NCBI GenBank assembly: GCA_025517425.1
Contig: JAOPJY010000003.1
Location: 205,367-269,366 of the forward strand
Origin: Halobacteria archaeon AArc-dxtr1
GTDB lineage: Archaea; Halobacteriota; Halobacteria; Halobacteriales; Natrialbaceae
Direction: 5' to 3'
DNA: 64,000 nucleotides
Both the position numbers and the translations under genes were made by a program. Below the pieces are notes generated by a model. It searched no databases. It saw only the letters and a program-made list of their open reading frames with translations, and was not told the DNA's origin. The number at the start of each line of letters is the position of its first letter. The stretch's first letter is position 1. Shown here in pieces: positions 37,259 to 58,095 of the stretch.

Positions 37259-37330
37259 GGGCTCGTAGATCAGTGGTAGATCACTCCCTTGGCATGGGAG
37301 AGGCCCCGGGTTCAAATCCCGGCGAGTCCA
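37259..37330 (+). tRNA. tRNA-Ala (GGC anticodon)
   Basis: The 72-base cloverleaf is complete. Acceptor stem gggctcg pairs with cgagtcc (one G-T pair), and the discriminator is A at 37330. The D arm includes agatcagtggtagatca. The anticodon stem ctccc/gggag holds the loop ttggcat with GGC, read as Ala for GCC codons. The T arm is ccccgggttcaaatcccgg. CCA is not encoded. There is no intron. It is the boundary of the mobile-element region to its right and the likely attachment gene. Confidence 0.97.
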
Positions 37331-37498
37331 CTCGAAATTAAGTGGTTTTCCGAGGGTTCCGAAACCGACAGTAGGAACGCTGTTCGCCACGAATACCGCC
37401 GAATCCCCATTTCTGAGTCGTCCATTTTTAGGAGAGTCCACCACGGACCGTTGCGCACCTCGACGCCCTCGAGCGGTCAGTAGAGGGAGGTGGTCCGC

Positions 37499-39770: not shown

Positions 39771-40003
39771 CGGGTGCCACCATCCCCTTCGACGCGATCT
39801 GCACCAGCTGCAAGCAGACCAAGGTCAAACACGTCCGTCCTCAGGAGGTCGGCCAGCACCCGCAGATCGATCCCGACGCGATCGACGCTTCCGAGTGCAC
39901 GTCGTTCAAGCACGTCTGCTACAATTGCGAGACAGCGACCTACTGGAATCCGGTAGATGTCCTGTCGGGCCTCCTCGCGAATGATGGGGGTGACGACGAG
40001 TGA
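39767..40003 (+). CDS. Small zinc-ribbon protein
   Basis: 78 aa. Two CxxC half-sites: ICTSCKQTKVKHVRPQE and KHVCYNCETATYW. An acidic C-terminus follows. It overlaps its neighbours by 4 bases on both sides. This is the fourth to sixth Cys-rich small protein in a row, depending on how the first is counted. Confidence 0.65.
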   Translation: MTGATIPFDAICTSCKQTKVKHVRPQEVGQHPQIDPDAIDASECTSFKHVCYNCETATYWNPVDVLSGLLANDGGDDE

Positions 40004-41982
40004 GCGACGATCGCGTCGACGACGAGTTCGACCTCCTCGAGGCCGCCGAGCCGATGGGCGCCGAAGAGGATAGCGTCGGCGGCGCGATCGACCAGGACAC
40101 TCCCACCGCTGGCGGCGACCAGGCTGACGGCAGCGTCGAGCTCGAGTTCGACGAGGACGACGTCGACGAGCCCGACGCGCGCTCGGTCTGTCGGTTCTGC
40201 GAGACCGAGTTCCGGACTGTCGTCGCTGAACGCCGTCACCACTCACAGGAACGCTGTGGCGAAAAGCCCGCGTCGTTCGTCCAGGACGCACGCAAGCTGA
40301 TCGATCCCCAACTCCACAAGTTCGGCGGCCAGTTCCTATTCGTTCCCGGCCTCGGTGATTTGCGTGGCTCGCAGGACGGGATGGCGCCGTATTTCGCGAT
40401 CGTCTCGCAGTTCGATCACTGTCAGATGGGCGACGACGGCGAAGACGACGTCGGCACCTTCGACTCGGCTGGTGATACGTGGAAGCTGAATCACGACGAA
40501 GAGAAGGTTAAGTACTGGCCGGGAAAGATCGAGACGCGCCCTGGAGACGCCGGCGATGCGTACTACGAGTATCAGGTCAACGTCGTCGCCGACGACGCCG
40601 TCGGGCGCAAGCGCATCAACTTTCAATTCCGTCCCTCGCTGCCCGAGGCAGTGAACGTCGAGACCGGCGAGCGAATCCAATCGATGCCCGCAGATCTCCC
40701 CGAGGGCGTTCGCGTTCAAGTCGAGAGCGCGAACGTCACACCCGCGGAGATCTTCGAGGTGTTGCAGGACTTGATGCGTCAGATCGACATCGACGCCGCC
40801 TATTTCGATCCCGACAACCTCCACGATCACTCCCGCGTCACCGGCCTTGAGCTCTACGTGCGCTGCATCCGCGAGATCGTCGAGAAGCAGGTCGTCGAGA
40901 CTGGCGCGCTGATGGATCGCCTCTCGCAGTTTTCGAGCGTCCGGCGCGGCCGCGGCGAGTACAAGTGGGACAACGAGGAGATAATCGGCCACCGTCACGC
41001 CGTCGCGATGAACGAAACCTCGCTCGGGAAGCTCTACCGGTCCAACGGCCACGAGGTCGGGAAGCTACTGAAGAGCTATCTGATGAAGAATCCCGAGAAG
41101 CAGGGCGGACCCACGGCGGAGCCGAAGATCGAGGTCCAGTGGAACAAGGAGTATTCGGACTACCTGGGCGGGAACGCGATTCCTTGGAGTGATCCAGAGG
41201 GTTACGACTTCGAGGACCTCCGCGACGAGCTCGACGAGTACCTCATGTTCGCGCTGAACGCAGCCGAGTTACCGCTTCGCGCTGATCCCACCGTGTACGT
41301 CCCCGACGAGTACTGGGACGTCACCGAGTCAGAGCGCGATATCCCGGTCCACGCCGATCCGACCGAGGAGCTTCGCGAGGCCGAGGAGGACCTCACGCGT
41401 GCGCAACTCGCTCGCGACGACACGACGTCGACCGATCGCGCCGTGATCAGGGCGCTGGCCGACGGCGGTCAGATGCACTACCAGCAGATCGTCGACGAGG
41501 CCGACGCCTCCTCGAGCAGCGTCTACCGCGCCGTCGATAAGTTCGGGACGCTCATCGACAAGGTTGGTCGTGGCAAGTACGATCTCGCCGACGACGTCGT
41601 CCGAAGCAAAGTCGAAGACGTGTTCGAGGCACTCGAGGACGTCACCGAGTGGGTCGAAGACGGCATCGAGGCGATCGTCGACGCCAACGACGAGATCGCC
41701 GGCGATTCCCCGCTCGCTCAGTGGGCGCGCCGGCACGGCGTTCACCTCTCCGAGCGCTACGACGAGATCGACGCTGAACTCACCGGTAGTTACTCCGAGT
41801 ACGAGCTGCGTCGCGTGCTTCGGGCCGGCCTCAAGGCCGCCCGCGACACTGGAGCGAACGTCGCAGCCCGCTTCATCTCCGGGGACTTCACCTACCAGGT
41901 TGGTTCCGAGCGCCGCGAAGATCAGCATCCGTTCACGACAGCTGGCGGATCCGTGCTTGTCCTTGGTCGGTCACTTCGCTAA
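40000..41982 (+). CDS. Large multidomain protein with zinc finger and winged helix, possibly replication-related (DUF7845-like)
   Basis: 660 aa with a GTG start overlapping the previous stop. After an acidic stretch there is a finger SVCRFCETEFRTVVAERRHH ending in RC. The body (about 90-420) is unrecognised mixed alpha/beta (FGGQFLFVPGLGDLRGSQDG). A winged helix lies at about 470-540 (DRAVIRALADGGQMHYQQIV, ASSSSVYRAVDKFGTLIDKV). A helical C-terminus follows. Similar large proteins appear in haloarchaeal plasmids and proviruses; a replication or partition role is inference only. The last 30 residues look unlike the rest and may be frame-shifted. Confidence 0.6.
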   Translation: MSDDRVDDEFDLLEAAEPMGAEEDSVGGAIDQDTPTAGGDQADGSVELEFDEDDVDEPDARSVCRFCETEFRTVVAERRHHSQERCGEKPASFVQDARKLIDPQLHKFGGQFLFVPGLGDLRGSQDGMAPYFAIVSQFDHCQMGDDGEDDVGTFDSAGDTWKLNHDEEKVKYWPGKIETRPGDAGDAYYEYQVNVVADDAVGRKRINFQFRPSLPEAVNVETGERIQSMPADLPEGVRVQVESANVTPAEIFEVLQDLMRQIDIDAAYFDPDNLHDHSRVTGLELYVRCIREIVEKQVVETGALMDRLSQFSSVRRGRGEYKWDNEEIIGHRHAVAMNETSLGKLYRSNGHEVGKLLKSYLMKNPEKQGGPTAEPKIEVQWNKEYSDYLGGNAIPWSDPEGYDFEDLRDELDEYLMFALNAAELPLRADPTVYVPDEYWDVTESERDIPVHADPTEELREAEEDLTRAQLARDDTTSTDRAVIRALADGGQMHYQQIVDEADASSSSVYRAVDKFGTLIDKVGRGKYDLADDVVRSKVEDVFEALEDVTEWVEDGIEAIVDANDEIAGDSPLAQWARRHGVHLSERYDEIDAELTGSYSEYELRRVLRAGLKAARDTGANVAARFISGDFTYQVGSERREDQHPFTTAGGSVLVLGRSLR

Positions 41983-42967: not shown

Positions 42968-43846
42968 CTATGCGTCATCGATCTCACCCTCGTTTATGCG
43001 CCGAGATACGGTGGCCTGATTGATCCCGACGATGTCCCCGATATCGCCTTGCGACAGGTCGGTCTGCTGATAAAGCCTCATCATCCACCAGTTGTCCCGG
43101 GCCCGCCGGGTGCGCTCTTTAGCTTTTTCGAGCGCATCCACATGCTCCGACCGATGGACGTAGTTCGACTGGGTTTTGCCCTCCTTGGACTCGACTTTCT
43201 TCCGATGCAGCTTCTTGAATTCAGGATGCCAGTCCAGTTTTGGCCACGAGATCGTCTCCGTTCGCTTCGAGTACGATTCCTCGTAGTGTTCGTTGTTCTT
43301 GAGTCGGTAGACTTTCGCCTCGCCTTTGGGCTCTCCTTTGTCGGTCTCTTGGCACTGAATCCAGTAATCGGCGCTGTCCGAGCCGATTCGCCCATCGACC
43401 CAGCCCTTCGACGGCGCTGTCATCATTCCGAATACCTGCCGGTAGCGCTTTGTCGCGAACGCCTGACTCAGGTTGACGTTGTCTCGAGATCCAGCACGCC
43501 GTGAGTCGACAGCGTCCTGCACTTCGTCGAGCAGGAGCACCGAACCCGGCGCGACCTCGTCGTACATCATCTCATAGTCTCGCGGATCGAGCGTCGCCTT
43601 CTCGGCTGTCCACCAGTTCATATCCCACAGAAGCGACAGCGTGACCGCGAGCGTCGTCTTGCCGACGCCCGTTTCGGCAGCTGCTGTGATGATGACGTGC
43701 ATGTCTCGCCCCGAGGTCAGCCTCGAGGCGAACTCGTGGAACATCTTCGAGTCGGTCAGTCCCGGGAACTTGTGCCAGATGTCGATCGGGGCCGACACAT
43801 CGTCGAACGGCCCCGGTCCGTCGTCTACTGGTTCTTTTGTCGCCAT
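42968..43846 (-). CDS. P-loop ATPase with C-terminal HTH (virus-type)
   Basis: 292 aa. Walker A AAAETGVGKTTLAVTLSLLW at about residues 56-75; Walker B SVLLLDEVQDAVDSRR at about 100-115; arginine-rich region ATKRYRQVFGMMTAPSKGW. The C-terminal 35 residues form an HTH (TDLSQGDIGDIVGINQATVS then RRINEG). Viral ATPases that drive genome packaging or replication initiation, such as Zot-like or the fusellovirus DnaA-like protein, have comparable size; I cannot place it more firmly. It overlaps the upstream gene by 22 bases and is the last of a three-gene leftward operon. Confidence 0.82.
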   Translation of the reverse strand: MATKEPVDDGPGPFDDVSAPIDIWHKFPGLTDSKMFHEFASRLTSGRDMHVIITAAAETGVGKTTLAVTLSLLWDMNWWTAEKATLDPRDYEMMYDEVAPGSVLLLDEVQDAVDSRRAGSRDNVNLSQAFATKRYRQVFGMMTAPSKGWVDGRIGSDSADYWIQCQETDKGEPKGEAKVYRLKNNEHYEESYSKRTETISWPKLDWHPEFKKLHRKKVESKEGKTQSNYVHRSEHVDALEKAKERTRRARDNWWMMRLYQQTDLSQGDIGDIVGINQATVSRRINEGEIDDA

Positions 43847-44406
43847 TCTTCCACCTCCTTGAGGAGTTCGTCATCGATCTCGGTTCGCGGCGTCGATTCG
43901 TCGATATCGGGGCCGAACCCGAGTTTGTTCGCTGCATCGTCGAGTTTCTGCGATGCGTTCAGGAGCACATGGCCGTCGACGAGCTCTCGGGATTGCGTGT
44001 GGATCTCGCGCTTTCCGAAGCAGTCCTCGATTTCTTTGACTTCGTCCGTCGGCTGGTTTGTCAGTGACTCCAGCCGGTCGAACCCAGTCATCGTTTGCAT
44101 CTTCGGCCGGTAATTAACCACCTCGCCGTTTTTCTTGACTGCCTCCCAGCCATCCTGAATCTGGCAGATCTCCGCTTCTTCCCAGAACTCTTCGACCGAC
44201 GTGTGCTCTCGCAACGGTTTGAGCGCCATGTAGAATTCCATCACTGCCGCCTGTAGTTCGTGGTGGATGCTCCACGGCACGTCTGGCGAGAGTTGTCGGG
44301 CTTCGATGTAATCGGACCGGGCCCGATGGTTTCGCTGCTGGGCTCGCGTGATGATCCGCGTCGCGATCGCGCCTTTTCGGGAGATCTGATCCTCGCTCGA
44401 GCTCAT
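43825..44406 (-). CDS. Hypothetical helical protein of the ATPase operon
   Basis: 193 aa, mostly helical, starting MSSSEDQISRKGAIATRIIT. The middle has SIHHELQAAVMEFYMALKPL and WEEAEICQIQDGWEAVK; a later segment RELVDGHVLLNASQKLDDAA is followed by an acidic end. There is no recognised domain. It starts in the stop of the 77-aa gene and runs 22 bases into the ATPase gene, so the three proteins are likely made together and may form a complex. Confidence 0.65.
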   Translation of the reverse strand: MSSSEDQISRKGAIATRIITRAQQRNHRARSDYIEARQLSPDVPWSIHHELQAAVMEFYMALKPLREHTSVEEFWEEAEICQIQDGWEAVKKNGEVVNYRPKMQTMTGFDRLESLTNQPTDEVKEIEDCFGKREIHTQSRELVDGHVLLNASQKLDDAANKLGFGPDIDESTPRTEIDDELLKEVEEWRQKNQ

Positions 44407-44636
44407 CGGTTATCCCCCGGCATCACGATCAGCGCGCCTGTTTTCGAGTCCATCCATGTGTTCAGTTCATCCTTGCTTTCCAGCTCGTGGTGGCGAACGA
44501 ACTGAATCGGGAGCGTGGCTTTGAGCGAATCTGAGGATCCGTTTGGTTGAGTCAGATACTCGCCCAAGCCGATGACTGCGCCATCGTCGAGAGCGTTCGC
44601 GGCGGAGCGCGCCGAGTCCATCTTTTGGGTGCTCAT
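44403..44636 (-). CDS. Hypothetical protein (77 aa), first gene of the ATPase operon
   Basis: Starts MSTQKMDSARSAANALDDGA at the ATG at 44636. A beta pattern follows (ATLPIQFVRHHELESKDELN, TWMDSKTGALIVMPGDNR). A TATA-like agttttatcat (minus strand, about 44671-44681) lies about 35-45 bases upstream. Overlaps the next gene by 4 bases. No recognised family. Confidence 0.62.
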   Translation of the reverse strand: MSTQKMDSARSAANALDDGAVIGLGEYLTQPNGSSDSLKATLPIQFVRHHELESKDELNTWMDSKTGALIVMPGDNR

Positions 44637-44760
44637 GCGGTGTCTGACCGCCTCGTTTCGTCCCTCTATGATAAAACTACCAGCTGGGTGGTTGCTCAAT
44701 TCACCACGACGATCACCACTGATGCAACGTTTTGTTAGCCTGCTCGGTATCCTGCCGCGC
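44637..44760. promoter_or_regulatory. Divergent promoter between ATPase operon and membrane-protein block
   Basis: Leftward TATA-like agttttatcat at about 44671-44681 (complement). Rightward, the block accactgat at 44715-44723 and gttttg at 44729-44734 lies 32 bases before the ATG at 44761, suiting a leaderless start. The rightward part is repeated upstream of the 752-aa gene (54726-54777) at 38 of 52 positions with no gap. Confidence 0.6.
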
Positions 44761-45117
44761 ATGGCTCTAATGCCAGACGTACTGAAAGACTCAGCCCGCG
44801 AGGGTTGGGAGCTTGGTAGTGAAGATGGGCTTAGTGGCATCAGTAAAGCCGCTGGCCTTGCGGACGGGGCGTTTACGCTTCTGTTCGTGTTGATCATCCT
44901 CGCCGTGGCCGCACTGGTCGGTGGCGAATTCCTCGAAGCAATCCCGTCCGATGGAGCGTTCGGAGACTCCATCGACACGCTCGAGGACAACGCTGCGACC
45001 TCGTTCACGCTGTTCGCGGTCGGCCTGCTCATCATCCCGGCAGCCGCTGTCGTCGGCTACCTGTGGACGCAGATGGGCGGCATGATGAACGGCGGCCTTC
45101 AGCGAATGGGCCGGTGA
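44761..45117 (+). CDS. Two-helix membrane protein, candidate major capsid protein (paralogue A)
   Basis: 118 aa from the ATG at 44761; an internal ATG at 44770 would align better with paralogue B. A short amphipathic N-terminus (LKDSAREGWELGSEDGLSGI) precedes helix 1 TLLFVLIILAVAALVGGEFL. A polar loop of about 30 residues leads to helix 2 TLFAVGLLIIPAAAVVGYLW and a Gly/Met tail GGMMNGGLQRMGR. It shares most residues with the next gene. Fusellovirus capsid proteins VP1/VP3 are likewise small, two-helix and tandem; equivalence is inference from architecture. The promoter is of leaderless type. Confidence 0.75.
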   Translation: MALMPDVLKDSAREGWELGSEDGLSGISKAAGLADGAFTLLFVLIILAVAALVGGEFLEAIPSDGAFGDSIDTLEDNAATSFTLFAVGLLIIPAAAVVGYLWTQMGGMMNGGLQRMGR

Positions 45118-45123
45118 GCGTCG

Positions 45124-45480
45124 ATGCTGGACCAGCTCAAGCATAACGCAAATCGAGGATGGGAGATGGGCCGTGAAGACGGCTTCAGCGGCGTCACTCG
45201 AGCTGCGGGGCTTGCGGACGGGGCGTTTACGCTCCTGTTCGTGTTGATCATCCTCGCCGTGGCCGCACTGGTCGGTGGCGAATTCCTCGATGCTATCGAG
45301 GTCCCAACTGAAGATCCGACTCCGATCGAGGAGTCGATTGGCGACATCGAGTCCAACGCTTCGACAGCCTTCGTGCTGTTCGGCGTTGGCATCCTCGTGA
45401 TCCCGGCCGCTGCCGTTGTCGGCTATCTGTGGACGCAGATGGGCGGCATGATCGGTGGCGGCCTTCAGCGAATGCGCTAA
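45124..45480 (+). CDS. Two-helix membrane protein, candidate major capsid protein (paralogue B)
   Basis: 118 aa starting MLDQLKHNANRGWEMGREDG. The same layout as paralogue A: ADGAFTLLFVLIILAVAALV is nearly identical, the loop differs (VPTEDPTPIEESIGDIES), and helix 2 is VLFGVGILVIPAAAVVGYLW. The C-terminus is GGMIGGGLQRMR. The genes are 6 bases apart and the copies also match at the DNA level over the first helix. The pair looks like a tandem duplication with a diverging exposed loop. Confidence 0.75.
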   Translation: MLDQLKHNANRGWEMGREDGFSGVTRAAGLADGAFTLLFVLIILAVAALVGGEFLDAIEVPTEDPTPIEESIGDIESNASTAFVLFGVGILVIPAAAVVGYLWTQMGGMIGGGLQRMR

Positions 45481-45523: not shown

Positions 45524-45784
45524 ATGTCACAAGCACTCAGCAGGGCAGCGCTCGGCTTTGGCGTGTTGCTCGTCGGCCTTCTCACGACTATCGCAGCCGC
45601 CGATCTGGCATACGACGGCGCCGATAGCGAGGCCGACGTTCTCGACACGTTCCACCCGGTCGCCGAAACCGTCCTGCCACTCCTTCCGTTGATCGTCCTC
45701 TTCGTCGCCGTGTTCGGCCTGATCGGCGCGGCTGCGTGGTTTCTGAACACCGTCAAATCCGGTTCCGGAGGTGGTTACCGATGA
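45524..45784 (+). CDS. Two-helix membrane protein
   Basis: 86 aa. RAALGFGVLLVGLLTTIAAA, a polar loop with ADSEADVLDTFHPVAE, then LPLLPLIVLFVAVFGLIGAA and a Gly-rich basic end (KSGSGGGYR). The two-helix plan resembles the paralogues upstream, without clear sequence identity. It overlaps the next gene by 4 bases. A virion or membrane-assembly part is inferred from context. Confidence 0.68.
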   Translation: MSQALSRAALGFGVLLVGLLTTIAAADLAYDGADSEADVLDTFHPVAETVLPLLPLIVLFVAVFGLIGAAAWFLNTVKSGSGGGYR

Positions 45785-46107
45785 TCCTTGAGGTTTTGCT
45801 GGCGCTGCTCGCGATTGGCACGCTCGCATCCGCCGCGATGGCGCTCAAAGTCGCACCCGTGTATTCGGCGATGATGAGTATGGCCGTCTGGCTCGTCGTC
45901 GCGTACGCGTCGACGTCAGTTGACGTCCTTCTCGCAACCAACGACGAGGTCGTCACGCACACAGTCAACGAGCCAGCGCTGGCTATCCTCGCGTTCGGGA
46001 ACGCCGCGATCTCGTTGATCATCCTGGTCGCAGCCGTCGCTGGCCAGTACGGCGCTGGCGAACAGACCGGCATAGACGAACCCTACAATCCGACTGAACA
46101 CCCATGA
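45781..46107 (+). CDS. Membrane protein, three hydrophobic segments
   Basis: 108 aa beginning MILEVLLALLAIGTLASAAM. Further segments: AMMSMAVWLVVAYASTSVDV and LAILAFGNAAISLIILVAAV. The tail is polar (GEQTGIDEPYNPTEHP). It overlaps both neighbours by 4 bases. No family recognised. Confidence 0.66.
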   Translation: MILEVLLALLAIGTLASAAMALKVAPVYSAMMSMAVWLVVAYASTSVDVLLATNDEVVTHTVNEPALAILAFGNAAISLIILVAAVAGQYGAGEQTGIDEPYNPTEHP

Positions 46108-46727
46108 TGCGCAAGCGCAAACAACCCGAGCGACCAGATCCAGAAGAACAGCACCGACGGAGTCAAGAGCAGACCCAGCACTCCGCCGCAACACAGACCG
46201 CCGCCCAAGAGGCGGCCAAGAGCACGCCCGACCTCTCCGAGCTCCAGAGTAAGGAGTTCATCGAGACCGCCTTCGAGCCGGACGTCAACCGTGGCGATGG
46301 AGTCCCCGGGTTCGAGAACAACCGCCTCGAGGAGCGCTATGCTGCTGAGTTCGGTCGTCACGCTGGCCTTGGGAACATCACCCGAGAAGAGTGGGAAGAC
46401 CGCAAGCACCTCAACAGGGCTCGGGCAATCCTCGCGCTCCAGGAGTACCGCCGTCCGAACGGCCTCGGTTCCATGTGCCGGGAAGATATCCGAAAGGCGT
46501 GGACTGACGAAGACGAACCGCTCCCCAAGCGTGACGACGACCTCTCGCGCGAGGTTCGGGCGATGTTCGACGAGAAGACGAATCTTGAAAGCCTGTCGAT
46601 CGGTGCGAAAGGCTTCGACGGTCTCACCAAGATTCACGCGGTCACCTACTCTCAGAATGAGGGTGGATCAAGTGGCAAAAGCGGGCTTCTAAGCCGGATG
46701 ACTGGCGGCCTAATGGGGGGTAATTAG
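46104..46727 (+). CDS. Soluble hypothetical protein of the structural block
   Basis: 207 aa. The basic, Gln-rich start (MMRKRKQPERPDPEEQHRRS) looks disordered. A helical core follows: AAEFGRHAGLGNITREEWED, KHLNRARAILALQEYRRPNG. The C-terminus is Gly/Ser-rich (MTGGLMGGN). No domain is recognised. Given its place it may be a minor virion or scaffold protein. Confidence 0.62.
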   Translation: MMRKRKQPERPDPEEQHRRSQEQTQHSAATQTAAQEAAKSTPDLSELQSKEFIETAFEPDVNRGDGVPGFENNRLEERYAAEFGRHAGLGNITREEWEDRKHLNRARAILALQEYRRPNGLGSMCREDIRKAWTDEDEPLPKRDDDLSREVRAMFDEKTNLESLSIGAKGFDGLTKIHAVTYSQNEGGSSGKSGLLSRMTGGLMGGN

Positions 46728-47483
46728 ATGAAGGAATACATCCCCTTCACGCAGGCCCGCCGCCAGCGGTTATACGCGGAATCACTCCATCGACAGCGTG
46801 GAAACCACGAGGTTCTCCTGCAGATCGAGTATCCTGATGGCACCGAGCAGATGAAGCCTGCGGACTGGGATTCAACTGAATCCTGTTGGAAAACACCCGA
46901 CGAACAGCGGTTTTACTCGAAGGGATTCGGTGGCGACCCCGGGATCCTGAACGGAGTCCCGATCGTCCACGTCGACGCCAGCAACGCTGGAGTCGTCTCC
47001 AGAGAGGCTGCGAAAGCAGCTGCCCGAGAGGATGACTACGACTACGTCGACAGTGACGGGAACGCACTCGAAGTTGTGGAGACAGACGAAGACGGCGCTC
47101 CAATCAAAGTAACGTACTCTGACGATGTGGATAGCTCGGTCGCCTCTGATGGCGGTGCGATGGATATCGACGATGTAGATCTCGCGTACGATCTGTCAGC
47201 ACCAGAGGAGTACGATGGCGAGATCATCAAACGTCGTCTCGCGGGTTACTATGACCCGTATCCCGTCTCACGTCAGGAGGCAGACCAAGCCGTCGAGCAC
47301 GCGAAGAGTGCCGCGGCCGACGCGGCGGGAACGTTGAAGACATTCCTGATCGGCTTCGGAGTCGCCTTCGCCGCCATCCTTCTGTTCATCGTCCTCATGT
47401 GGCTGCTTGGCCAGATCGGTGGCGGTGAAGAAGGGGGGAACGTCATCCCTGCGATGGTGAACAGTATGGGGGTATTCCGATGA
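46728..47483 (+). CDS. Tail-anchored protein of the structural block
   Basis: 251 aa. Residues 1-190 are soluble, with an acidic strand-rich N-terminal domain (EVLLQIEYPDGTEQMKPADW) and a linker. A single membrane helix LIGFGVAFAAILLFIVLMWL lies near residues 205-230, then a Gly/Glu tail with NVIPAMVNSMGVFR. The N-terminus probably faces the virion or cell interior. It follows the previous gene without a gap. Confidence 0.64.
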   Translation: MKEYIPFTQARRQRLYAESLHRQRGNHEVLLQIEYPDGTEQMKPADWDSTESCWKTPDEQRFYSKGFGGDPGILNGVPIVHVDASNAGVVSREAAKAAAREDDYDYVDSDGNALEVVETDEDGAPIKVTYSDDVDSSVASDGGAMDIDDVDLAYDLSAPEEYDGEIIKRRLAGYYDPYPVSRQEADQAVEHAKSAAADAAGTLKTFLIGFGVAFAAILLFIVLMWLLGQIGGGEEGGNVIPAMVNSMGVFR

Positions 47484-47506: not shown

Positions 47507-50500
47507 ATGTCTGATCCGCCGGCAGAATTCGATCGATCTGTGGCCAGAGAGCAGCGACGCGAGTCTGCAATCGAGCGCCGTCGTCAAGAAGAGCAAGAAG
47601 AGCGGCTCCGCGAAGAGATTGCTGCAGCTGAGGGAGTCGACCCGGCTCACGTTGAGGTTGAGCAGAGGAATGGAGAGATCATCCCACGGCTCACAGACGA
47701 AGGTGAGCAGACCCTTATTGACCAGGAGCGAGAGCGTTCCCGTCAGGAACTTAGAGAAGAGGTTGCTGACGATCTTGGTCTTGAGGTGAGTCAAGTTGCA
47801 GTTGAGCGTGAAGACGAACAGTTCGTGGCCGAACCCACCGAAGAGGGCGAGCAGACGCTCCGCGATGCAGAGGTTGATCGAGCTCGGAGCGAGTTGAGAG
47901 ATGACGTTGCGGACGATCTCGGGCTGGATCCAGACCACGTGCGCGTTATCGAGACCGATGATGGTCTGACCGCAGAACCAACCTCACAGGGAGAGCAGAT
48001 CCTCGTTGACGAGGCAGAGACAGAGATACGTGAGGAAATCGCTGATGAAACTGGCGTGGATCCGGATGACGACATCATTATCGAGGATGGCGAGGCTCGC
48101 TTAACTGACGAGATCCAACAGCAACGCGAGCAAGAACAGCGAGAGGAATTTGTCTCCAGTCTCGACGATGAGATTACCGATCTCATCGATCCAGATCCCG
48201 ATGAGGATGTCGTTATCGACGATGGTCAGATCCAACTCGCCGACGGTGCGGAACAGCAACTCCAGGACGCCACTGAACAACGGCAACGCGAGGAGTTTGT
48301 CTCTGATCTTCGGACAGATGTTCCCGCCGGTACCCGTCTCGACGCAGATGAGGATGTCGTTGTCGAAGATGACGAGATTCGCCTCTCCTCGGACGCCCAG
48401 GACCGAATCCGAGATCTGCAGATCGAAGAGCACCGAGAAGAGGCTGCAGACGATATCGGCATTGATCCAGATGAACTTCGCGTTATCGATGATGGCGATG
48501 AGATCTCGCTCGAACCCACATCAGACGGTGAGGAACGCCTTGGTCGAGAGCGGTTGTTTGACCAGCGTTCGGAGTTAGCCGACGAACTCGGCATCCGTGA
48601 ACAGATGATCGACGTCGAAATGGACGGTGATGTTGATGACTGGGGACTCGATATGGACCCCTCCGTTGCTGGCCACGTCGATGATCCTGCAGACCTCCCT
48701 GGAATTGAAGACGAGCGGGACGAGTTCGCCGACGAACTTGGAATTGAGGTTGAGGATCTGAACATCACCACCGAGGATGGAGAGGTTGCCTTCGAGCCTG
48801 TTGGAGATGGCCGCGAGCAACTGGCTCGAGAAGGGTTGTTTGACCAGCGTTCGGAGTTAGCCGACGAGCTCGGCATCCGTGAACAGATGATCGACGTCGA
48901 AATGGACGGTGATGTTGATGACTGGGGACTCGATATGGACCCCTCCGTTGCTGGCCACGTCGATGATCCTGCAGACCTTCCAGGCGTTGGCAGCGCACGC
49001 GAGGGATTAGCCGACGATTTGGGAGTTTCAGAAGACCAGATCGATATCGACGCGGTCGGTGGCGAGATCTCTCTTGATCCGACGGATGAGGCGATCGAGG
49101 ATGTCACACGCAGAGAGCTCGATACACAGCGCTACGACGTCGCACGCGATCTCGGAATAGATCATCGGGCGCTTGAGATCGATACGGAAGGAGACGTCGA
49201 AGACTGGGGCTTCGATGTTGATCCCGGTCGTGTCAGCGATCCACTCGACGTCCCCGGCGTAGAGGATGCTCGAGAAGACTTTGCCGAGGAGTTGGGCGTC
49301 TCGGAAGATGAGATCGATATCGAAACCGTCGACGACGAGATCACGCTCGGACCAACAGAAGCTGCAGAGGAGCAACTGATACTTGACGAAGTGGCTGGTG
49401 AGCTTGGCGTGTCTCCTGACGATCTCGTTCTGACCGACGTCGATCCTCAGGACGTCGACGAGGTAGAAGAGATGCGTCGTCATTTCGCCGACGAAGTTGG
49501 GCTTTGGCCCGATGCAATCGACGTCAGCCAGCAAAACGGAGAGATTGGATTCAGCGTGGCCGACCGGTTCGACGGCTTCGAGGACGCCACTGAGACGATG
49601 GATTTCGAAGGAGAGTTGACTGGTGTCCAACTCGCGGACGATGCAGATCCGTTTGCCATCGATGCTGTCGAAGATCAACGCCAAGATGTCGCTGACGAGC
49701 TCGGCATCGATGAACATCTCGTTAGCGCCGATATCGAAGATGGTGCTGTCGAGTTCGATCTTCGACCTCGCGGCGAGGCGCTCGTCGAGCGCCAACATCT
49801 CGACGAACAACGCGAGGAGTTTGCCTCCGAGATCGGCGTCGAACCTGGAGACGTGGTGAGAGAAGACGACCAGTTCACAATATCTGAAGATGCCCAACTT
49901 GGGCAGGTTGAGCAACAGGTTTCAGAGGATCTCGGCATCAGTGCCGACGATCTCGAGGCGACGTTCCGTGACGAAGAAGTCGTTGCTGAAGAGCGATTTC
50001 GTCGATCTCGAATGGGGTTAGACGCTGACGACGTCCAAGAAGTCGATATCGATATCGATCCAGATGTCGAAAGCGAGCTGCTCCGAGACGATGCAGCCGA
50101 GACGCTCGGCATTGATCCCGGTGAGGTCGAGGGAGTCGACCCATCGACAGGCGAACTTGAGTTATCTCGTGGTGCTCAGGAGGATCTGCTGCTCGAGCAG
50201 ATCCAAGATGAAGATCCCGGTGTCGATCCAGACGACGTCAGCTTCGTCGAAGACGACGGCGAATTGGTTGCAGAGGTTGAGGGGCCGTCCACGTTCGACA
50301 TGGCTGTCGATCGTTTTGTCTCGATCGGTCGCGAAGAGCACACGCCCCAGGACATCGCCTCAGGCATCGCCGATGGTGTCGTCGATATCGGCTCCAACAT
50401 CAGAGAATCTGTTTCTGGGGCCGCCGAGACGGTTGTAGACGTTGGACAGGAAGCACACAGCCCGCAAGATATCGTGTCAGACGCTGTCGACACTGTTCCA

Positions 50501-52078
50501 ATCGACGAGCGAGCAGCCATCGCTGGCGGTGGCCTCTTGGCAGCACCAGATCCAGTGACCGACATTGGTGGCGCTGCGATCTTGACCGGCGGCGCGCTTG
50601 CAGGGGGAGCCGTGCTCGCTCACGAGCGGTTAACAGAGACTGAGATTGATGAGATCGAACAAGAGACACCAGGTCTGACTGGCGCCGAAATCGACATCCC
50701 AGAAGACAGTGTAGAGTGGGATGTAACCGAGATCGAGGCTCCTGAAGGGCGTGTTGAGTGGGATGCGACTGAGTTTGAAGCCCCTGGAGAACGCGTCGAA
50801 TGGGACACCACAGAACTCGACATCCCAGAAGATCGTCTGGAGTGGCACCAAGAGGAAGTTGGAGTTCCGGAGGACGTCATCGATGAACGGGCAGAGGTCG
50901 GTATTCCAACGATCGAAGCTGCCGAATTTGCGGGTCTCGATCGCCAGTTCGAGGAGGACATCGAACCCGTCTCCGAAGGCGTTAGTGCCGGCGTTATCAC
51001 CGCCGACGATCTCGTCGATCCCGACGAGATGCACCAAGGCGTCGAGCGCGAGCTCGAAGACCAGCAGTTCGACCAAGCCGATTTCGAGCTCGATCGCATC
51101 CAAGAGACGCTATCGGACGATGCGCTGGCCGAGCAAGAGGTCTTCGAAGATGTCACTGGCGAACTCACGCAAGGAGGGACGTTTAGAGACGTGCCCGGAC
51201 AGGCGATCTGGGATGATAGCGAAACACTGAGCCGCGTCGCTGGTGAGCAACTCGCTGAAGAGCCGACACCCGACGCCATCGAGGATACACTCGAGCTGAT
51301 CGAGCAAACCCGGCCGGAAGTATTCGACGACGCCACGACCGAAGCGCCTCAGGGCGTGTCTGAGAGTATCGTTCAGCAGCCAACCGATGCCGTCGATCAT
51401 GTTGGCGGCATCGCAGTTGGTCCAGGACTCGGTAGCGGCCCTCGAGCGCCAGTACTCCCAGACCAACCCGCGTTCGAAGAGCAGATCCTCGACCGGGGTG
51501 CGGTCCCGCCGCTGGTTGATGATGCCGTGCGGCTCGGTCCCGGAGAAGAAATCGTCCACGAACAGCCGTCAGCAATTCCGGAAACGCCACGCGAGCGGGT
51601 CGATTCTCATCTCCGAGAGGGTTTACACGAGCGCCTCGCGGACGACGTCGTCCAACAACCCCAGGGGCGCATCGATGTCGATGTGCCACCGATGGAGCAG
51701 CAACAGCCGGACGTCGGTGCGCCAATGGCACCTGAGCTTCGGACGGGAGTGGCACCATCCGACGAGTTCGTGAGCCCACTCTCACCCACTCAGGTTGAGG
51801 CCGACACCGAGGTCGCGAACCCACAAGAACACCAAGTGGCATTCGAGACGCCGTTCGTCACCCCTCAGGTCCATCAGACTGGTCGACAGGGTCGCCCGCC
51901 GCTTCGGGTGCCGATGCCCGATCTCGATGCCGAAGACGGGGCTGAAGGCGAGGTCCCCGGCTGGCAACAGGGCGACTATTTCAACCCGTTCGCTGGGCCG
52001 GGAGAGATCCTTGGCATCGGCGCTCCTGGCCAATCGCCGATGCAGGGCCTGTTCGGAGGAGGTGGCCAGCGTGGATAG
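47507..52078 (+). CDS. Giant modular repeat protein (1523 aa)
   Basis: The largest gene of the element. A strong ribosome binding site (ggaggaggtaa) lies just before the ATG. Residues about 1-900 are built of some 18-20 imperfect units of 40-50 residues, each an acidic helix, then ADELGI-type turn, then a beta pair (for example EEVADDLGLEVSQVAVERED followed by EPTEEGEQTL). Two units near residues 349-396 and 443-490 are almost identical. Residues about 990-1045 contain a hydrophobic Gly/Ala stretch (GGAAILTGGALAGGAVLAHE). About 1060-1130 carry five 15-residue repeats of the type RVEWDATEFEAPGE. The end is Pro/Gln-rich. A long structural, tether or tape-measure-like role is conceivable; no family recognised. 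Confidence 0.75.
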   Translation: MSDPPAEFDRSVAREQRRESAIERRRQEEQEERLREEIAAAEGVDPAHVEVEQRNGEIIPRLTDEGEQTLIDQERERSRQELREEVADDLGLEVSQVAVEREDEQFVAEPTEEGEQTLRDAEVDRARSELRDDVADDLGLDPDHVRVIETDDGLTAEPTSQGEQILVDEAETEIREEIADETGVDPDDDIIIEDGEARLTDEIQQQREQEQREEFVSSLDDEITDLIDPDPDEDVVIDDGQIQLADGAEQQLQDATEQRQREEFVSDLRTDVPAGTRLDADEDVVVEDDEIRLSSDAQDRIRDLQIEEHREEAADDIGIDPDELRVIDDGDEISLEPTSDGEERLGRERLFDQRSELADELGIREQMIDVEMDGDVDDWGLDMDPSVAGHVDDPADLPGIEDERDEFADELGIEVEDLNITTEDGEVAFEPVGDGREQLAREGLFDQRSELADELGIREQMIDVEMDGDVDDWGLDMDPSVAGHVDDPADLPGVGSAREGLADDLGVSEDQIDIDAVGGEISLDPTDEAIEDVTRRELDTQRYDVARDLGIDHRALEIDTEGDVEDWGFDVDPGRVSDPLDVPGVEDAREDFAEELGVSEDEIDIETVDDEITLGPTEAAEEQLILDEVAGELGVSPDDLVLTDVDPQDVDEVEEMRRHFADEVGLWPDAIDVSQQNGEIGFSVADRFDGFEDATETMDFEGELTGVQLADDADPFAIDAVEDQRQDVADELGIDEHLVSADIEDGAVEFDLRPRGEALVERQHLDEQREEFASEIGVEPGDVVREDDQFTISEDAQLGQVEQQVSEDLGISADDLEATFRDEEVVAEERFRRSRMGLDADDVQEVDIDIDPDVESELLRDDAAETLGIDPGEVEGVDPSTGELELSRGAQEDLLLEQIQDEDPGVDPDDVSFVEDDGELVAEVEGPSTFDMAVDRFVSIGREEHTPQDIASGIADGVVDIGSNIRESVSGAAETVVDVGQEAHSPQDIVSDAVDTVPIDERAAIAGGGLLAAPDPVTDIGGAAILTGGALAGGAVLAHERLTETEIDEIEQETPGLTGAEIDIPEDSVEWDVTEIEAPEGRVEWDATEFEAPGERVEWDTTELDIPEDRLEWHQEEVGVPEDVIDERAEVGIPTIEAAEFAGLDRQFEEDIEPVSEGVSAGVITADDLVDPDEMHQGVERELEDQQFDQADFELDRIQETLSDDALAEQEVFEDVTGELTQGGTFRDVPGQAIWDDSETLSRVAGEQLAEEPTPDAIEDTLELIEQTRPEVFDDATTEAPQGVSESIVQQPTDAVDHVGGIAVGPGLGSGPRAPVLPDQPAFEEQILDRGAVPPLVDDAVRLGPGEEIVHEQPSAIPETPRERVDSHLREGLHERLADDVVQQPQGRIDVDVPPMEQQQPDVGAPMAPELRTGVAPSDEFVSPLSPTQVEADTEVANPQEHQVAFETPFVTPQVHQTGRQGRPPLRVPMPDLDAEDGAEGEVPGWQQGDYFNPFAGPGEILGIGAPGQSPMQGLFGGGGQRG
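48552..48696 (+). repeat. 145-bp internal direct repeat, copy 1
   Basis: Identical to 48834-48978 at 144 of 145 positions (one A/G difference in a silent site). It encodes the ELGIREQMIDVEMDGDVDDW unit. The offset is 282 bases (94 codons), so frame is kept. Confidence 0.93.
48834..48978 (+). repeat. 145-bp internal direct repeat, copy 2
   Basis: Second copy of 48552-48696. The flanking units differ clearly, so the duplication or conversion is recent relative to the other repeats of the gene. Confidence 0.93.
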
Positions 52079-52322
52079 AGCGCAAACGTCGCTCCCGTAC
52101 ATGCTGCTCCTGGGAGCTGTGTCGTTTGTCCTGATGACCTACCTCTACGTTGTCCTGGACCCGGTCGTCACCGAGATCGTCGGGACATCGGCCTGGCAGG
52201 ATGGATCCGAGGAGACGATGGCCGGACGAGAGCGTCTTCTGGCGATGTGGGACGTTGCGCTGATTCTCGGCCTGACTGGTATCGGTCTCACTATCCTGTG
52301 GGCCTCACGGAGGGGAGTCTGA
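52071..52322 (+). CDS. Two-helix membrane protein
   Basis: 83 aa from a GTG overlapping the giant gene's stop. Segments LPYMLLLGAVSFVLMTYLYV and ALILGLTGIGLTILWASRRG flank a polar loop with WQDGSEETMAGRE. Same plan as the next gene. No family recognised. Confidence 0.65.
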   Translation: MDRAQTSLPYMLLLGAVSFVLMTYLYVVLDPVVTEIVGTSAWQDGSEETMAGRERLLAMWDVALILGLTGIGLTILWASRRGV

Positions 52323-52582
52323 TGCTGATCCTGCGCGTGATCGTCGTGATCGTCGGCCTCTTCACGCTCGTGTTGATGGGGCTGATGGTCGGGCTCGTCG
52401 TCGACCCGCTCTTCGAGGAGGTGATCGCCAACGATGCAGTCGAGTCGATGGGGATGGACCAGAGCCTGCGCGTTGCGATGATGATTGGTATGGGGATGGT
52501 CCTGCCGCTGCTCGGCGTGGCGGCGCTCATCTGGCTGCACACATCTGGACTGAAACACGACGTCGGACACCGGAGGTACTGA
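52322..52582 (+). CDS. Two-helix membrane protein
   Basis: 86 aa. LILRVIVVIVGLFTLVLMGL with GLVVDPLFEEVIANDAVE as loop, then MIGMGMVLPLLGVAALIWLH and a short basic tail. Both this and the preceding protein share a V-V-DP motif after helix 1, so they are probably distant paralogues. ATG overlaps the previous stop by one base. Confidence 0.65.
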   Translation: MLILRVIVVIVGLFTLVLMGLMVGLVVDPLFEEVIANDAVESMGMDQSLRVAMMIGMGMVLPLLGVAALIWLHTSGLKHDVGHRRY

Positions 52583-52584
52583 TC

Positions 52585-52686
52585 ATGACGACAGATGACC
52601 TGAAACGGCTCCAGGAAGAGGCGCTCGCAGAGGCGAATCGTGAACTGAACGCTGCGGCACGCACACGAATCCAGACCAATGATTGA
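52585..52686 (+). CDS. Tiny helical protein (33 aa)
   Basis: MTTDDLKRLQEEALAEANRE then LNAAARTRIQTND, a single amphipathic helix. It overlaps the next gene by 8 bases and follows the previous stop by 2 bases, which supports translation. No function known. Confidence 0.5.
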   Translation: MTTDDLKRLQEEALAEANRELNAAARTRIQTND

Positions 52687-53587
52687 CGAACAGAAGATCC
52701 GGGAGATCGTCCAAGACGAGCTCCAGAAGGCAGATGCATCGACAGCAGACGAACAAGACAGCGGAGGATACAGCCGGCGAAACATCTTGCAGGGGGCAGG
52801 CCTCTTCGGCTTCGGATCCCTCGCAGCAACGGCAGTTGGACGCGGAGGTATCGGCCAGGCCAGTGCCAACAACGGTGATGCTCTCTACGGCATTGATCAG
52901 ATCGGGCTACCAGACGATCGCGTCGAGACACTCTACGTCGACGAGGTTGACAGCGTCCTCGAGGCCGGAACGCTGGACGGAGATCTCGACGCAGACGGGT
53001 ACGATATCCAGAACGCTGGATCGGTCAGTACAGAGGAGGCAGATGTCGACGAGGCATTAGTGTCTCTTTTGAGGGACGGCGAAGCCAGAGTTGATCGGCG
53101 CGAAGTCTATGCTATCGAATTAACGGGACAAGGAGGATTTGACGAGACAATAGATGTGCCTCTCTCTGATGGAGTCACAACGATTGTTAGGGCAAAAGAT
53201 ATCGACGATGAGACTGGCAATGTCGAGATCCGATTGCAGTGGGGAGACAGGCAGAGCGACCGCTATACTTTCCTCCATCGGAATGAGCAAGGGGAGACTG
53301 ATAGAGAGGACAATGCCACATCATGGGCTCTGCTCACGCATCACGATGGGGACCGCAATGTCACATCTGGCGAGTGGACTATTCGTCAAACAAACGATGC
53401 TGCGGAAATATCAGGCAGTGGCTATGATATGTTTGGCGAAGAGCACGAAGCTCTAACAGCCGGCGGATTAAGTGGAACCAAAGAAGAGGACGAAATCCGT
53501 CTCGTCACCAATAACGATCCGTCGAGTGATAGTGATTTCAGTTGGGAGTTCCAAATTTTAATCGTGGATGGTGGTTTGGGAAACTGA
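52679..53587 (+). CDS. Tat-exported adhesin-like protein
   Basis: 302 aa. A helical N-terminus (IREIVQDELQKADAS) precedes a twin-arginine signal GYSRRNILQGAGLFGFGSLA at about residues 30-50. After it comes a short repeat region typical of archaeal virus and surface fibres (LDADGYDIQNAGSVSTEEAD). A beta-rich C-terminal domain follows (ETDREDNATSWALLTHHDGD). From about 53040 the gene is visibly richer in A and T than the block before it. A receptor-binding or surface role is inferred. Confidence 0.68.
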   Translation: MIDEQKIREIVQDELQKADASTADEQDSGGYSRRNILQGAGLFGFGSLAATAVGRGGIGQASANNGDALYGIDQIGLPDDRVETLYVDEVDSVLEAGTLDGDLDADGYDIQNAGSVSTEEADVDEALVSLLRDGEARVDRREVYAIELTGQGGFDETIDVPLSDGVTTIVRAKDIDDETGNVEIRLQWGDRQSDRYTFLHRNEQGETDREDNATSWALLTHHDGDRNVTSGEWTIRQTNDAAEISGSGYDMFGEEHEALTAGGLSGTKEEDEIRLVTNNDPSSDSDFSWEFQILIVDGGLGN

Positions 53588-53630: not shown

Positions 53631-54647
53631 ATGAATGTGAAGTTTGAAACTTACGACGAAAACGGGACACCCCCCTCAGAATACGACTCATACGGAATGT
53701 TTCGTCTGGATGGAGTCGCAGGACAGACGGTTAATTTTGTCTGGGACAATGTGGATGACATCCGGGATGACCGCGTTCCGAGTGATTATAATCTCCTATG
53801 GACGACAGATGTGGATGACCCGGATAGCTGGCAACGATTCGAGGACAGTCCCCCTATTTGGTCCAAGTCATTTGGTCCAGACGAAAACACGGTTTACGTC
53901 CTCATATGGCCGTCATTGAACTACCAAAACACAGTCGATTATGCCCAAAAACTCGACGAACACGACGAAGTAACTCTTGATGTTATAGGGCAAAGCCAGG
54001 AGGGGCGTGATGTCTACCGAATGGCTATCTCAGACCCTGAAGTTCCTGACAGTGACAAATTAAAATTCCCAATATTCTCAAGAATCCATCCGGGTGAATC
54101 TTTGATAAGTTACACTTTTGAGGGTATGGTTGATTACATCCTTGACGTCTTCCAGGACCCTGATATTGAGTTCGAGGAGGACTACAATTTCCTTTGTTAC
54201 CCGCATCTACATCCCGATGGAATGTATCATGGTTGGGACCGCTACGATGCCGACGAAAGGGACTTTAATCGGGTCTGGGAAGAGGAGACTCCCCCTGCCC
54301 CGATTGATGACATTCGCTCGGACATCGAGGATATGCCGGGAGAGCCAGATTGGTTAGTCGATCTCCACTGTGCAACGCACACCGATCAGGACGCAGCTCT
54401 ATACCATCCCGATGCTCCAAACGCTGACGAGATGGATATAATCGAGGCTGTGGCCGATAAATCGCTATCGATGAGCGACACGAAAGCATGGGACACTGAG
54501 GGGGGAACGACTACTTGGTGGTATGAGAAGCACGGGAGACCGGGAGTGTTGAGCGAGACATGGACTTACTACGACTACGAATTGGACGAACTCAGAGAGG
54601 AGGGGGAAAACTTCATGAAGGAATTGACAACGACTGTTGACTCCTGA
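53631..54647 (+). CDS. M14-family zinc carboxypeptidase
   Basis: 338 aa. The M14 active site is complete: H153 and E156 in SRIHPGESL, H246 in WLVDLHCATH, the Asn-Arg pair in DFNRVW (N213, R214), and catalytic E309 in GVLSETWTYY. Supporting motifs are VIGQSQEGRDVYRMAIS and CYPHLHPDGMYHGWD. A beta-rich N-terminal domain of about 100 residues precedes it, like the N-domain of cytosolic carboxypeptidases. There is no signal peptide. Base composition is lower in G+C than the flanks, suggesting acquisition. The substrate could be a host or virion protein's C-terminus. Confidence 0.9.
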   Translation: MNVKFETYDENGTPPSEYDSYGMFRLDGVAGQTVNFVWDNVDDIRDDRVPSDYNLLWTTDVDDPDSWQRFEDSPPIWSKSFGPDENTVYVLIWPSLNYQNTVDYAQKLDEHDEVTLDVIGQSQEGRDVYRMAISDPEVPDSDKLKFPIFSRIHPGESLISYTFEGMVDYILDVFQDPDIEFEEDYNFLCYPHLHPDGMYHGWDRYDADERDFNRVWEEETPPAPIDDIRSDIEDMPGEPDWLVDLHCATHTDQDAALYHPDAPNADEMDIIEAVADKSLSMSDTKAWDTEGGTTTWWYEKHGRPGVLSETWTYYDYELDELREEGENFMKELTTTVDS

Positions 54648-54725
54648 GGCGCACTTTGCACGAGACTCATTCCTGACTGTCGTGGAATAAACGTTCGATC
54701 CACCACCTGAGCCACCACGCGAGTT

Positions 54726-54777
54726 ACCACTGATCCGATGTTTTGAGAGTCTACTTGATGTTTGCCCGCGCATGGCT
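54726..54777 (+). promoter_or_regulatory. Second copy of the structural-block promoter box
   Basis: Matches 44715-44766 at 38 of 52 positions with no gap, including accactgat, gttttg and the final gcgcatggct. In this copy the atggct would open a 10-codon frame (54772-54804), and the real gene starts at 54826. A transcript starting here would have a leader of about 55-60 bases. Confidence 0.6.
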
Positions 54778-57084: not shown

Positions 57085-57452
57085 AGGGACTCCAGATCGC
57101 CGCCTTCGTGTTCTGTTTCAGCCTCTCGATCGGCTTACTCGCCGGCCTCGGGTGGTTCGACGTCGTCGGGACGCAGCCCGATCCCGGGATCGACAACACC
57201 GACGCCGTCGAAGAAGAGGCTGAAGAGGTCGAAGCAGGTGGAGAGAGCAGCCGGGATGAAGGCATCCTCGGCACCATTGGGGCAGTCAACGACGTGATCA
57301 ACACCCTCAGGACGTTAACAGTGCAGACCGGGTCAGCCCTGACGAATCTGGGGGTCCCGGCGCCGATCGCGTACGCGATCCACTCTGTCGTCGCGCTCGC
57401 GCTCCTGGTCACGATGCTCGAGATCATCCGTGGTATGAGGTTCGGAACATGA
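57081..57452 (+). CDS. Two-helix membrane protein
   Basis: 123 aa. AAFVFCFSLSIGLLAGLGWF, an acidic loop (DAVEEEAEEVEAGGESSRDE), an amphipathic segment NDVINTLRTLTVQTGSALTN, then AIHSVVALALLVTMLEIIRG. Start overlaps the previous stop by 4 bases. No family recognised. Confidence 0.66.
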   Translation: MKGLQIAAFVFCFSLSIGLLAGLGWFDVVGTQPDPGIDNTDAVEEEAEEVEAGGESSRDEGILGTIGAVNDVINTLRTLTVQTGSALTNLGVPAPIAYAIHSVVALALLVTMLEIIRGMRFGT

Positions 57453-57742
57453 GAGGCGATCGCGAGTGGTACCGGTATCTCGGTGAGGGAGAGTTCTGGG
57501 ATGCGCTCTTTCAGCCACACATCGACACGGTCGGAACCGCCGGTCTGGCGATGCTTATCGGAGTGCCGCTGATCCTCTCGCTCTACGCCTGGACGGGGAC
57601 GTTCCTCATTCCAGCAATCATCCTGGCACTGTTCGGCGGCATCATGATCATGGCGGCGCCGCCCCAGCTCGCGATCATCGGGACGCTCATGGTCGTGACT
57701 GCAGTGACGATCTCGTTGCTCTCGGTCTGGGGTGACACCTGA
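57449..57742 (+). CDS. Membrane protein, three hydrophobic segments
   Basis: 97 aa. After REWYRYLGEGEFWDALFQPH the segments are GLAMLIGVPLILSLYAWTG, LIPAIILALFGGIMIMAA and IIGTLMVVTAVTISLLSV. It is coupled to both neighbours by overlapping start and stop codons. Unknown family. Confidence 0.66.
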   Translation: MRGDREWYRYLGEGEFWDALFQPHIDTVGTAGLAMLIGVPLILSLYAWTGTFLIPAIILALFGGIMIMAAPPQLAIIGTLMVVTAVTISLLSVWGDT

Positions 57743-58095
57743 TGTCGATCGCACACCGAGAGGTTCGGACGTGGCGGTGGCTCGTCTGGTTGCTCGTCCC
57801 GGCGCTCCCGCTGCACGAGCTCACGCACGCGATCGTCGCGAAGCCCTGGGCCGATGTCGAGATCGACTGGCACCACCCGATGGTCATCATGCACTGGGAC
57901 GATGCGCCCCCGTGGGCGATCCTCTGCGCTCACGTCGCGCCGCTGTTGATCGGCTGTCTCGTCGGCAGCGCGGCGCTGTTCGCCTTTGCGATCGGGTTCG
58001 TTCCCGAGCTCCACTTCTTGGTCTGGGTGTGGCTCCTCGGCAACTGGTTCAATTACACAGCGCTGACGCTGCAGGACCTACGCGTCTTCTCCTGA
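57742..58095 (+). CDS. Small membrane protein with HELTH metalloprotease-like motif
   Basis: 117 aa. Helix 1 is WLVWLLVPALPLHELTHAIV; the HELTH fits the HExxH zinc motif of membrane-embedded metalloproteases and of DUF3267-type proteins. A third ligand could be in IDWHHPMVIMHWDD or in the later ELHFLVWVWLLGNWFNYTAL. Last gene of the coupled structural block. It might process one of the membrane proteins, but this is inference. Confidence 0.7.
   Translation: MSIAHREVRTWRWLVWLLVPALPLHELTHAIVAKPWADVEIDWHHPMVIMHWDDAPPWAILCAHVAPLLIGCLVGSAALFAFAIGFVPELHFLVWVWLLGNWFNYTALTLQDLRVFS

Follow-up and report, generated by a model that had tools for sequence, protein, structure and literature searches.

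Twin Two-Helix Genes in an Integrated Haloarchaeal Element as Probable Major Capsid Protein Genes of a Lemon-Shaped Virus Related to LSV-48N

The Twin Genes TH1 and TH2

The window analyzed here is a 64-kb stretch of haloarchaeal DNA in which two adjoining forward-strand genes, TH1 (44761–45117) and TH2 (45124–45480), encode paralogous proteins of 118 residues each that are 69–71% identical to one another and that are predicted, from ORF calls together with paralogue and profile comparisons, to be copies 1 and 2 of a major capsid protein (MCP). TH1 may start at ATG 44761 or, if judged by TH2, at ATG 44770. Both proteins begin with a polar N-terminus of approximately 30 residues ahead of helix 1 (LADGAFTLLFVLIILAVAALVGGEFL), which is identical in the two, and continue through a variable acidic loop to a helix 2 with the common segment IPAAAVVGYLW and a Gly/Met-rich tail whose last residue is Arg. 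A preliminary description of this DNA had reported two adjoining genes with a near-identical helix 1, a conserved helix 2, a variable loop, and a Gly/Met tail, and both reading frames and all of these features were found where it had placed them.

Of the 76 codons shared by TH1 and TH2, 24 differ synonymously, such change being frequent outside helix 1, and dN/dS is 0.28; therefore, the two are genuine coding genes held under constraint by purifying selection. Within helix 1, the copies are nearly identical even at the DNA level: the patch at 44857–44943 (+) of TH1 and its counterpart at 45211–45297 of TH2 share a 56-nt identical run and 18 successive shared codons without a synonymous change (permutation p=0.008), a pattern that appears gene-conversion-like. 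The same permutation test was applied to seven tandem pairs, of which the window pair is one, and gave no significant unchanged-codon run in the other six.

At the BLAST level, the pair is an orphan. When TH2 was searched directly against phage, plasmid, IMG/VR, and GTDB collections, no match was obtained; IMG/VR scans with other MCP queries likewise gave none, and neither protein has a Pfam or PHROG match, including to pilin, transporter, and holin families.

Gene Neighborhood

The twin genes lie beside a divergent module on the reverse strand. Its first gene (44403–44636, −) encodes a 77-aa protein that is 44% identical (E=3e-20) to the same-place protein (locus L063) of Halostagnicola sp. 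A56, a same-genus genome in the sampled set, the window assembly itself being 2.8 Mb. Next is a protein in the pL6 R5 position (43825–44406, −; 31% identical to an LSV-48N 195-aa protein, E=1.5e-18), whose gene overlaps that of a putative genome-packaging P-loop ATPase with a C-terminal HTH, of the pL6 R6/His1 gp16 type (42968–43846, −; tblastn; BLv25 ORF1, 38%, E=4e-37; His1 gp16, E=1e-15). At 40000–41982 (+) lies a DUF7845 protein (Pfam PF25227, E=2e-88; LSV-48N 711-aa protein, E=3e-30), which is probably a rolling-circle replication initiator of the Rep-Arvir type, a function shown for this family in SNJ2 (2026), with LSV-48N named as a carrier (PMC13107129). A 65-nt repeat just upstream of TH1 (44702–44766) is 71% identical to 54713–54777, just ahead of the spike gene; its core is absent elsewhere in the window, and it is a possible common promoter or operator of the two genes.

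Downstream of TH2, on the forward strand, TH3 (45524–45784), a two-helix protein of 86 aa, takes the place of His1 gp23 and of a TM-beta-TM protein of LSV-48N, without the beta part, and TH4 (45781–46107), a membrane protein of 108 aa, takes that of His1 gp24. The earlier suggestion that three more two-helix proteins follow in the same block holds for TH3, with its two hydrophobic helices, but not for TH4, which has three hydrophobic stretches; the further small membrane proteins lie approximately 6 kb on (52071–52582) and at 57081–57742. Beyond TH4 come a conserved structural-operon protein in the place of an LSV-48N 199-aa protein (46104–46727, +; homologues in L036, L037, L038, L040, L044, and L049), a protein with a C-terminal membrane anchor in the place of an LSV-48N 290-aa protein (46728–47483, +; assigned by position, with a weak match at E=0.08), and a 1523-aa acidic repeat protein (47507–52078, +; LSV-48N, E=3e-4; L041, E=7e-13). 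The latter contains many degenerate repeats, among which a 207-nt unit occurs twice, at 48539 and 48821, with 88% identity, and its counterpart by place in LSV-48N is an 824-aa Asp/Arg-repeat protein.

Two small two-helix membrane proteins (52071–52322, + and 52322–52582, +) stand where LSV-48N also has two such genes, and are followed by a secreted protein with a Tat-like signal (52679–53587, +; homologues in L041, L044, and L049) and by a zinc carboxypeptidase of type M14 (53631–54647, +; PF00246, E=2e-9), cargo within the structural operon that may act on the host cell surface. The surface or tail (spike) protein of 752 aa (54826–57084, +), with Ig-like repeats and C-terminal membrane helices, is 35% identical to an LSV-48N 904-aa protein (E=3e-78). 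Two conserved membrane proteins (57081–57452, +; LSV-48N, 34%, E=1e-13; and 57449–57742, +; LSV-48N, E=5e-4) precede a DUF3267-like membrane zincin with the motif HELTH (57742–58095, +; LSV-48N, 42%, E=8e-18), which is kept in LSV-48N and in four other elements (L044, L096, L098, and L105) and is a candidate for a spindle-virus capsid-trimming protease. A short-form tyrosine recombinase (58428–59012, +; PF00589, E=2e-14; LSV-48N, E=1.5e-24) and a Cdc6/Orc-like AAA protein (59773–60789, +; LSV-48N, 45%, E=4e-92) follow. Only the Rep, the repeat protein, and the spike exceed 500 aa among the genes of the element.

An Integrated Element with Attachment Sites

TH1 and TH2 belong to an integrated provirus of approximately 29 kb with att sites and integrases. 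Its attL is the 3′ end (37318–37330, CCCGGCGAGTCCA) of a tRNA-Ala(GGC) gene (37259–37331, +; ARAGORN). The corresponding attR was not found inside the 64-kb window and is located instead at the contig end, where contig C3 closes with the same 13-nt sequence (window coordinate 66588–66600, 2.6 kb past the window end). Just before attR lies one of the two complete integrase ORFs of the element (65478–66485; 335 aa), which is 42% identical to the LSV-48N integrase (E=9e-93). The G+C content over most of the element is below that of the flank. A sister element of 26.7 kb (L046, genome G015) sits at a tRNA-Pro gene, and its attR is recognizable behind an integrase of 390 aa.

The contig of the window ends precisely at attR, which suggests that the assembly forked at this attachment site, and integrated and excised forms may have coexisted in the sequenced culture. 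The integrated state, together with the fact that we know of no virus from this strain, would also suit a defective or domesticated provirus whose capsid homologues make no particles. This possibility is compatible with capsid identity, and we consider it rather unlikely, as the identified genes all have open frames, neither integrase is truncated, the att sites are recognizable, and TH1 and TH2 are under purifying selection; the position of the assembly break also argues against it, since such a break can occur where integrated and excised forms coexist.

Kinship with LSV-48N, His1, BLv25, SSV, and pL6

A phage search with the ATPase and the 752-aa protein matched Halorubrum spindle-shaped virus BLv25, His1, and Haloferax LSV-48N. 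LSV-48N is an isolated virus with lemon-shaped particles of 65–90 by 35–50 nm (PMC12714723); it integrates and circularizes (PP151251). The two share at least nine homologous, syntenic genes, encoding the Rep (DUF7845), the ATPase, the R5 protein, the Ig-like surface protein, two membrane proteins, the zincin, the short integrase, and the Cdc6-like protein, and the structural operon and the divergent ATPase module have an identical gene order in both. In the place of TH1 and TH2, LSV-48N has a two-helix gene of 166 aa (WWZ16978.1, NCYXQXBW_CDS0020; blastp E=2e-5 in a small set). This gene is single and has a longer N-terminal extension, in contrast to the window pair, and LSV-48N further differs in its Haloferax host, in having the TM-beta-TM protein in the TH3 place, and in having no M14 peptidase gene at the corresponding place.

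Similarly, His1 gp21/VP21 and BLv25 ORF2 are two-helix MCPs that share an operon with gp23-like and gp24-like proteins and have a homologous ATPase nearby, although their direct similarity to TH1 and TH2 is not significant, and the His1 MCP is a single copy of 73 aa. Membership of the element in the Halspiviridae (His1) was considered and rejected, because the element is integrated and has integrases and a DUF7845 Rep, whereas the His1 genome is linear, bears terminal repeats, and encodes a DNA polymerase of type B (PolB).

VP1 and VP3 of SSV1 and SSV2 are likewise tandem paralogous hairpin capsid proteins with a variable N-terminus and a conserved hairpin, and the parallel drawn in the preliminary description with these fusellovirus genes is borne out in that the window pair also consists of tandem paralogous hairpin genes. 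Their profile similarity to the TH proteins is distant and runs via intermediates; in addition, the remaining gene set is unrelated, the hosts are hyperthermophiles, and the VP1/VP3 split predates the SSV1–SSV2 split, whereas window-type pairs are their own sisters. Membership in the Fuselloviridae was also rejected, as the element has two complete integrase ORFs and the LSV-48N gene set rather than SSV core genes and an integrase that is split on integration.

Finally, divergent Rep (F3/DUF7845) and ATPase (R5–R6) modules also occur in the Haloquadratum pL6 plasmids, which share the ATPase/R5 module of the element, and in Natronomonas pharaonis PL23. pL6 R6 has been linked to His1 gp16 as a probable packaging ATPase (PMC5974055, PMC11431627). 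The pL6 plasmids have neither capsid operon nor spike, whereas PL23 has a TH-type pair. The R4 region of pL6A was examined as an MCP relative and is not claimed as such, the provirus MCP profile giving E=0.009 for pL6A but 0.4 for pL6B.

Profile and Structural Evidence for Capsid Identity

At each of 25 loci, all ORFs were ranked with a profile from which that locus had been left out. Of these loci, 22 are proviruses, plasmids, or contigs, the window among them, and three are the viruses LSV-48N, BLv25, and His1. The same-place two-helix gene ranked first or second in all 25; at L099, it is outranked by an adjoining hairpin protein. Among the 759 ORFs of the window, TH1 comes first (E=1e-11) and TH2 second (E=2e-10), and the next match is at E=0.25. 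With a profile of the proviruses plus LSV-48N alone, the top matches are the known or annotated MCPs His1 gp21 (E=0.03), BLv25 ORF2 (0.2), and SSV1 VP1 (2e-4), and in SSV2, VP1 and VP3 rank first and second (0.03 and 0.04); the evidence here lies in the agreement of ranks, as the single E-values are weak except for SSV1.

The comparison with spindle-virus MCPs that had been proposed as a check gave a stepwise link to His1 gp21, BLv25 ORF2, and SSV VP1/VP3 through intermediate proviruses. In hhalign, whose percentages are pairwise and not database-wide, the TH group matches the LSV clade at 95% and group B (L043, L047, L049, and L099) at 85%; group B matches the His1/BLv25 MCPs at 90% and SSV VP1/VP3 at 73%, and group B plus His1/BLv25 matches SSV at 94%. 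Four membrane-protein families of the same viruses, taken as controls, gave at most 2% against these groups. The direct step from the TH group to His1 or SSV is not significant (at most 3%), and a family hmmsearch against PDB sequences gave 7xdi VP1 at E=3. Because a profile of known MCPs alone fails to find TH1 and TH2 in the window, their capsid assignment rests on the profile chain, the position, and the synteny taken together. The MCPs of L099 and L034 match the "virion structural protein" families PHROG 11172 (E=8e-6) and PHROG 16261 (E=3e-4), respectively, in an independent library; the ATPase of L034 is 53% identical to that of the window. A weak match in genome G139 was set aside, that genome having no ATPase match.

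The minor-protein alternative, in which TH1 and TH2 are minor virion membrane proteins and the main shell protein is TH3, TH4, or a protein encoded at 57 kb, appears quite improbable. The operon does encode several small membrane proteins, and the most abundant viral protein reported from LSV-48N supernatants is not a small one but one with similarity to the SSV19 tail protein and a beta-sandwich (PMC12714723); however, a strong match of the His1/SSV-linked profile is obtained only at the TH1/TH2 position, and this position adjoins the ATPase, as does the gene at which the MCP of BLv25 is annotated.

The architecture of TH1 and TH2 is that of spindle-virus MCPs, that is, a small protein with a variable N-terminus, two hydrophobic helices, and a polar loop. 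AlphaFold2, run on TH2 with seven sequences, gave a low-confidence model (pLDDT 65, pTM 0.34) of two helices (2–58 and 67–117) with no significant match among PDB and viral structures, in which SSV19 VP1 (7xdi_A) is at rank 8 (E=5) and the archaeal conjugation pilin 8dfu at rank 20 (E=9.5). This model, like that of the ATPase (pLDDT 43), was too poor to weigh for or against a capsid fold. The weak fold match to 8dfu, the plasmid annotation of some relatives, and the fact that short two-helix membrane proteins are common might suggest instead that TH1 and TH2 serve a device for plasmid transfer, pilus formation, or egress, as pilins, holins, or vesicle proteins. We regard such a role as very improbable: pilin and holin families gave no Pfam or PHROG match, helix 1 begins approximately 30 residues in with no recognizable class III signal, virion proteins are the best of the sequence relatives that carry an annotation, and the genes are arranged as in a lemon-shaped virus.

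Spread among Haloarchaeal Elements and Recurrent Tandem Pairs

An ATPase-led search gave 25 of 295 relatives and 40 of 391 sampled genomes, counts that include pL6-type plasmids and distant ATPases. A two-helix gene that diverges from the ATPase module occupies the corresponding place in approximately 20 other haloarchaeal elements and at most ATPase loci for which the neighborhood was at hand. The helix filter did not find it at some ATPase loci (e.g., L042, L045, L050, L097, L102–L104, L106, and L109).

Seven loci have a tandem pair (the window, L035, L036, L039, L040, L046, and L101), and on the tree, whose branches are long and deep forks unsure, the members of all seven pairs are mutually closest, unlike SSV VP1 and VP3; the L039 copies, 76% identical, form an unresolved fork. 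Because each pair consists of its own closest relatives, the pairs appear to have arisen repeatedly or to stay alike by conversion. In most pairs, the helix protein is nearly identical while synonymous sites have changed, fitting subunits that pack in one shell. SSV1 without the minor paralogue VP3 has an altered particle shape (PMC5748691), and by analogy, it is reasonable to suppose that the second copy of a pair would have a role in shape.

Several relatives deserve mention in their own right. PL23 of Natronomonas pharaonis (23486 bp) has an MCP-type tandem pair (L039:4502–5224) among genes ordered as in LSV-48N, and the chromosome of that genome carries a second copy of the ATPase with an equal score; PL23 thus resembles a temperate spindle-shaped virus present both as an episome and in integrated form. 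An annotated plasmid of Natrinema sp. DC36 (L044; NZ_CP084478, 33.9 kb) has an LSV-48N-like structural operon. Two provirus copies (L099 and L100; G395:C1:467055 and 508258) lie 41 kb apart on one chromosome and are identical in the stretch compared, and it is through their MCP that SSV VP1 is best reached (blastp E=2e-6).

A Third Hairpin and the Shell

In many elements, the gene after the MCP or MCPs, in the place of His1 gp23, encodes the TM-beta-TM protein, which the LSV-48N record annotates as a "major tail protein with Ig-like domain." Its termini resemble the MCP hairpin in L049 (E=7e-10 by blastp, 3e-11 by hmmsearch) and L099 (1e-5). Joined TM-beta-TM termini match the MCPs at 93%, with controls at 10% or less; for loci other than L049 and L099, an MCP-like hairpin in these termini is suggestive only.

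These comparisons allow a tentative model, for which we hold somewhat less than even confidence, in which the shell would be a set of hairpin paralogues: an MCP pair that is recurrently re-duplicated or gene-converted, plus a third, His1 gp23-like hairpin with a beta-domain in its inter-helix loop that would serve as a built-in surface decoration, TH3 being a stripped version. The membrane zincin could trim the MCP N-terminus.

Concluding Remarks

Overall, TH1 and TH2 are very probably paralogues that serve as the major capsid proteins of a temperate spindle- or lemon-shaped virus of the LSV-48N type, integrated in a Halostagnicola genome. The original proposal of capsid proteins of a haloarchaeal spindle-shaped virus is thus supported by the LSV-48N gene neighborhood, the ATPase of the His1/BLv25 kind, and the stepwise family link with controls near zero. 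Each protein would be a helical hairpin in the lipid-protein shell of the virion, its N-terminus and loop being variable and its Gly-rich tail having Arg as the last residue, and many copies of both would lie side by side to give a flexible shell. The divergent ATPase module would load the DNA, the 752-aa Ig-like protein and small membrane proteins would form the tail or spike end, and the provirus may still be active.

To our knowledge, few lemon-shaped haloviruses have sequenced genomes. In several hypersaline waters, the lemon shape is the most frequent particle type (PMC12714723). The discoverers of LSV-48N found none of its ORFs similar to a known capsid protein, considered the virus to have no sequence kinship with the haloarchaeal lemon-shaped viruses known before, and limited their account of related proviruses to Haloferax (PMC12714723). 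The present analysis provides a capsid-protein assignment for the LSV-48N group that names a specific gene, and it joins this group to His1, BLv25, and SSV via the capsid and ATPase genes, a link unreported by its discoverers. It also places the group in many haloarchaeal genera beyond Haloferax, with plasmid PL23 as a member, and leads to the prediction that the "plasmids" PL23 of Natronomonas pharaonis and the 33.9-kb replicon of Natrinema DC36 would be virus genomes.
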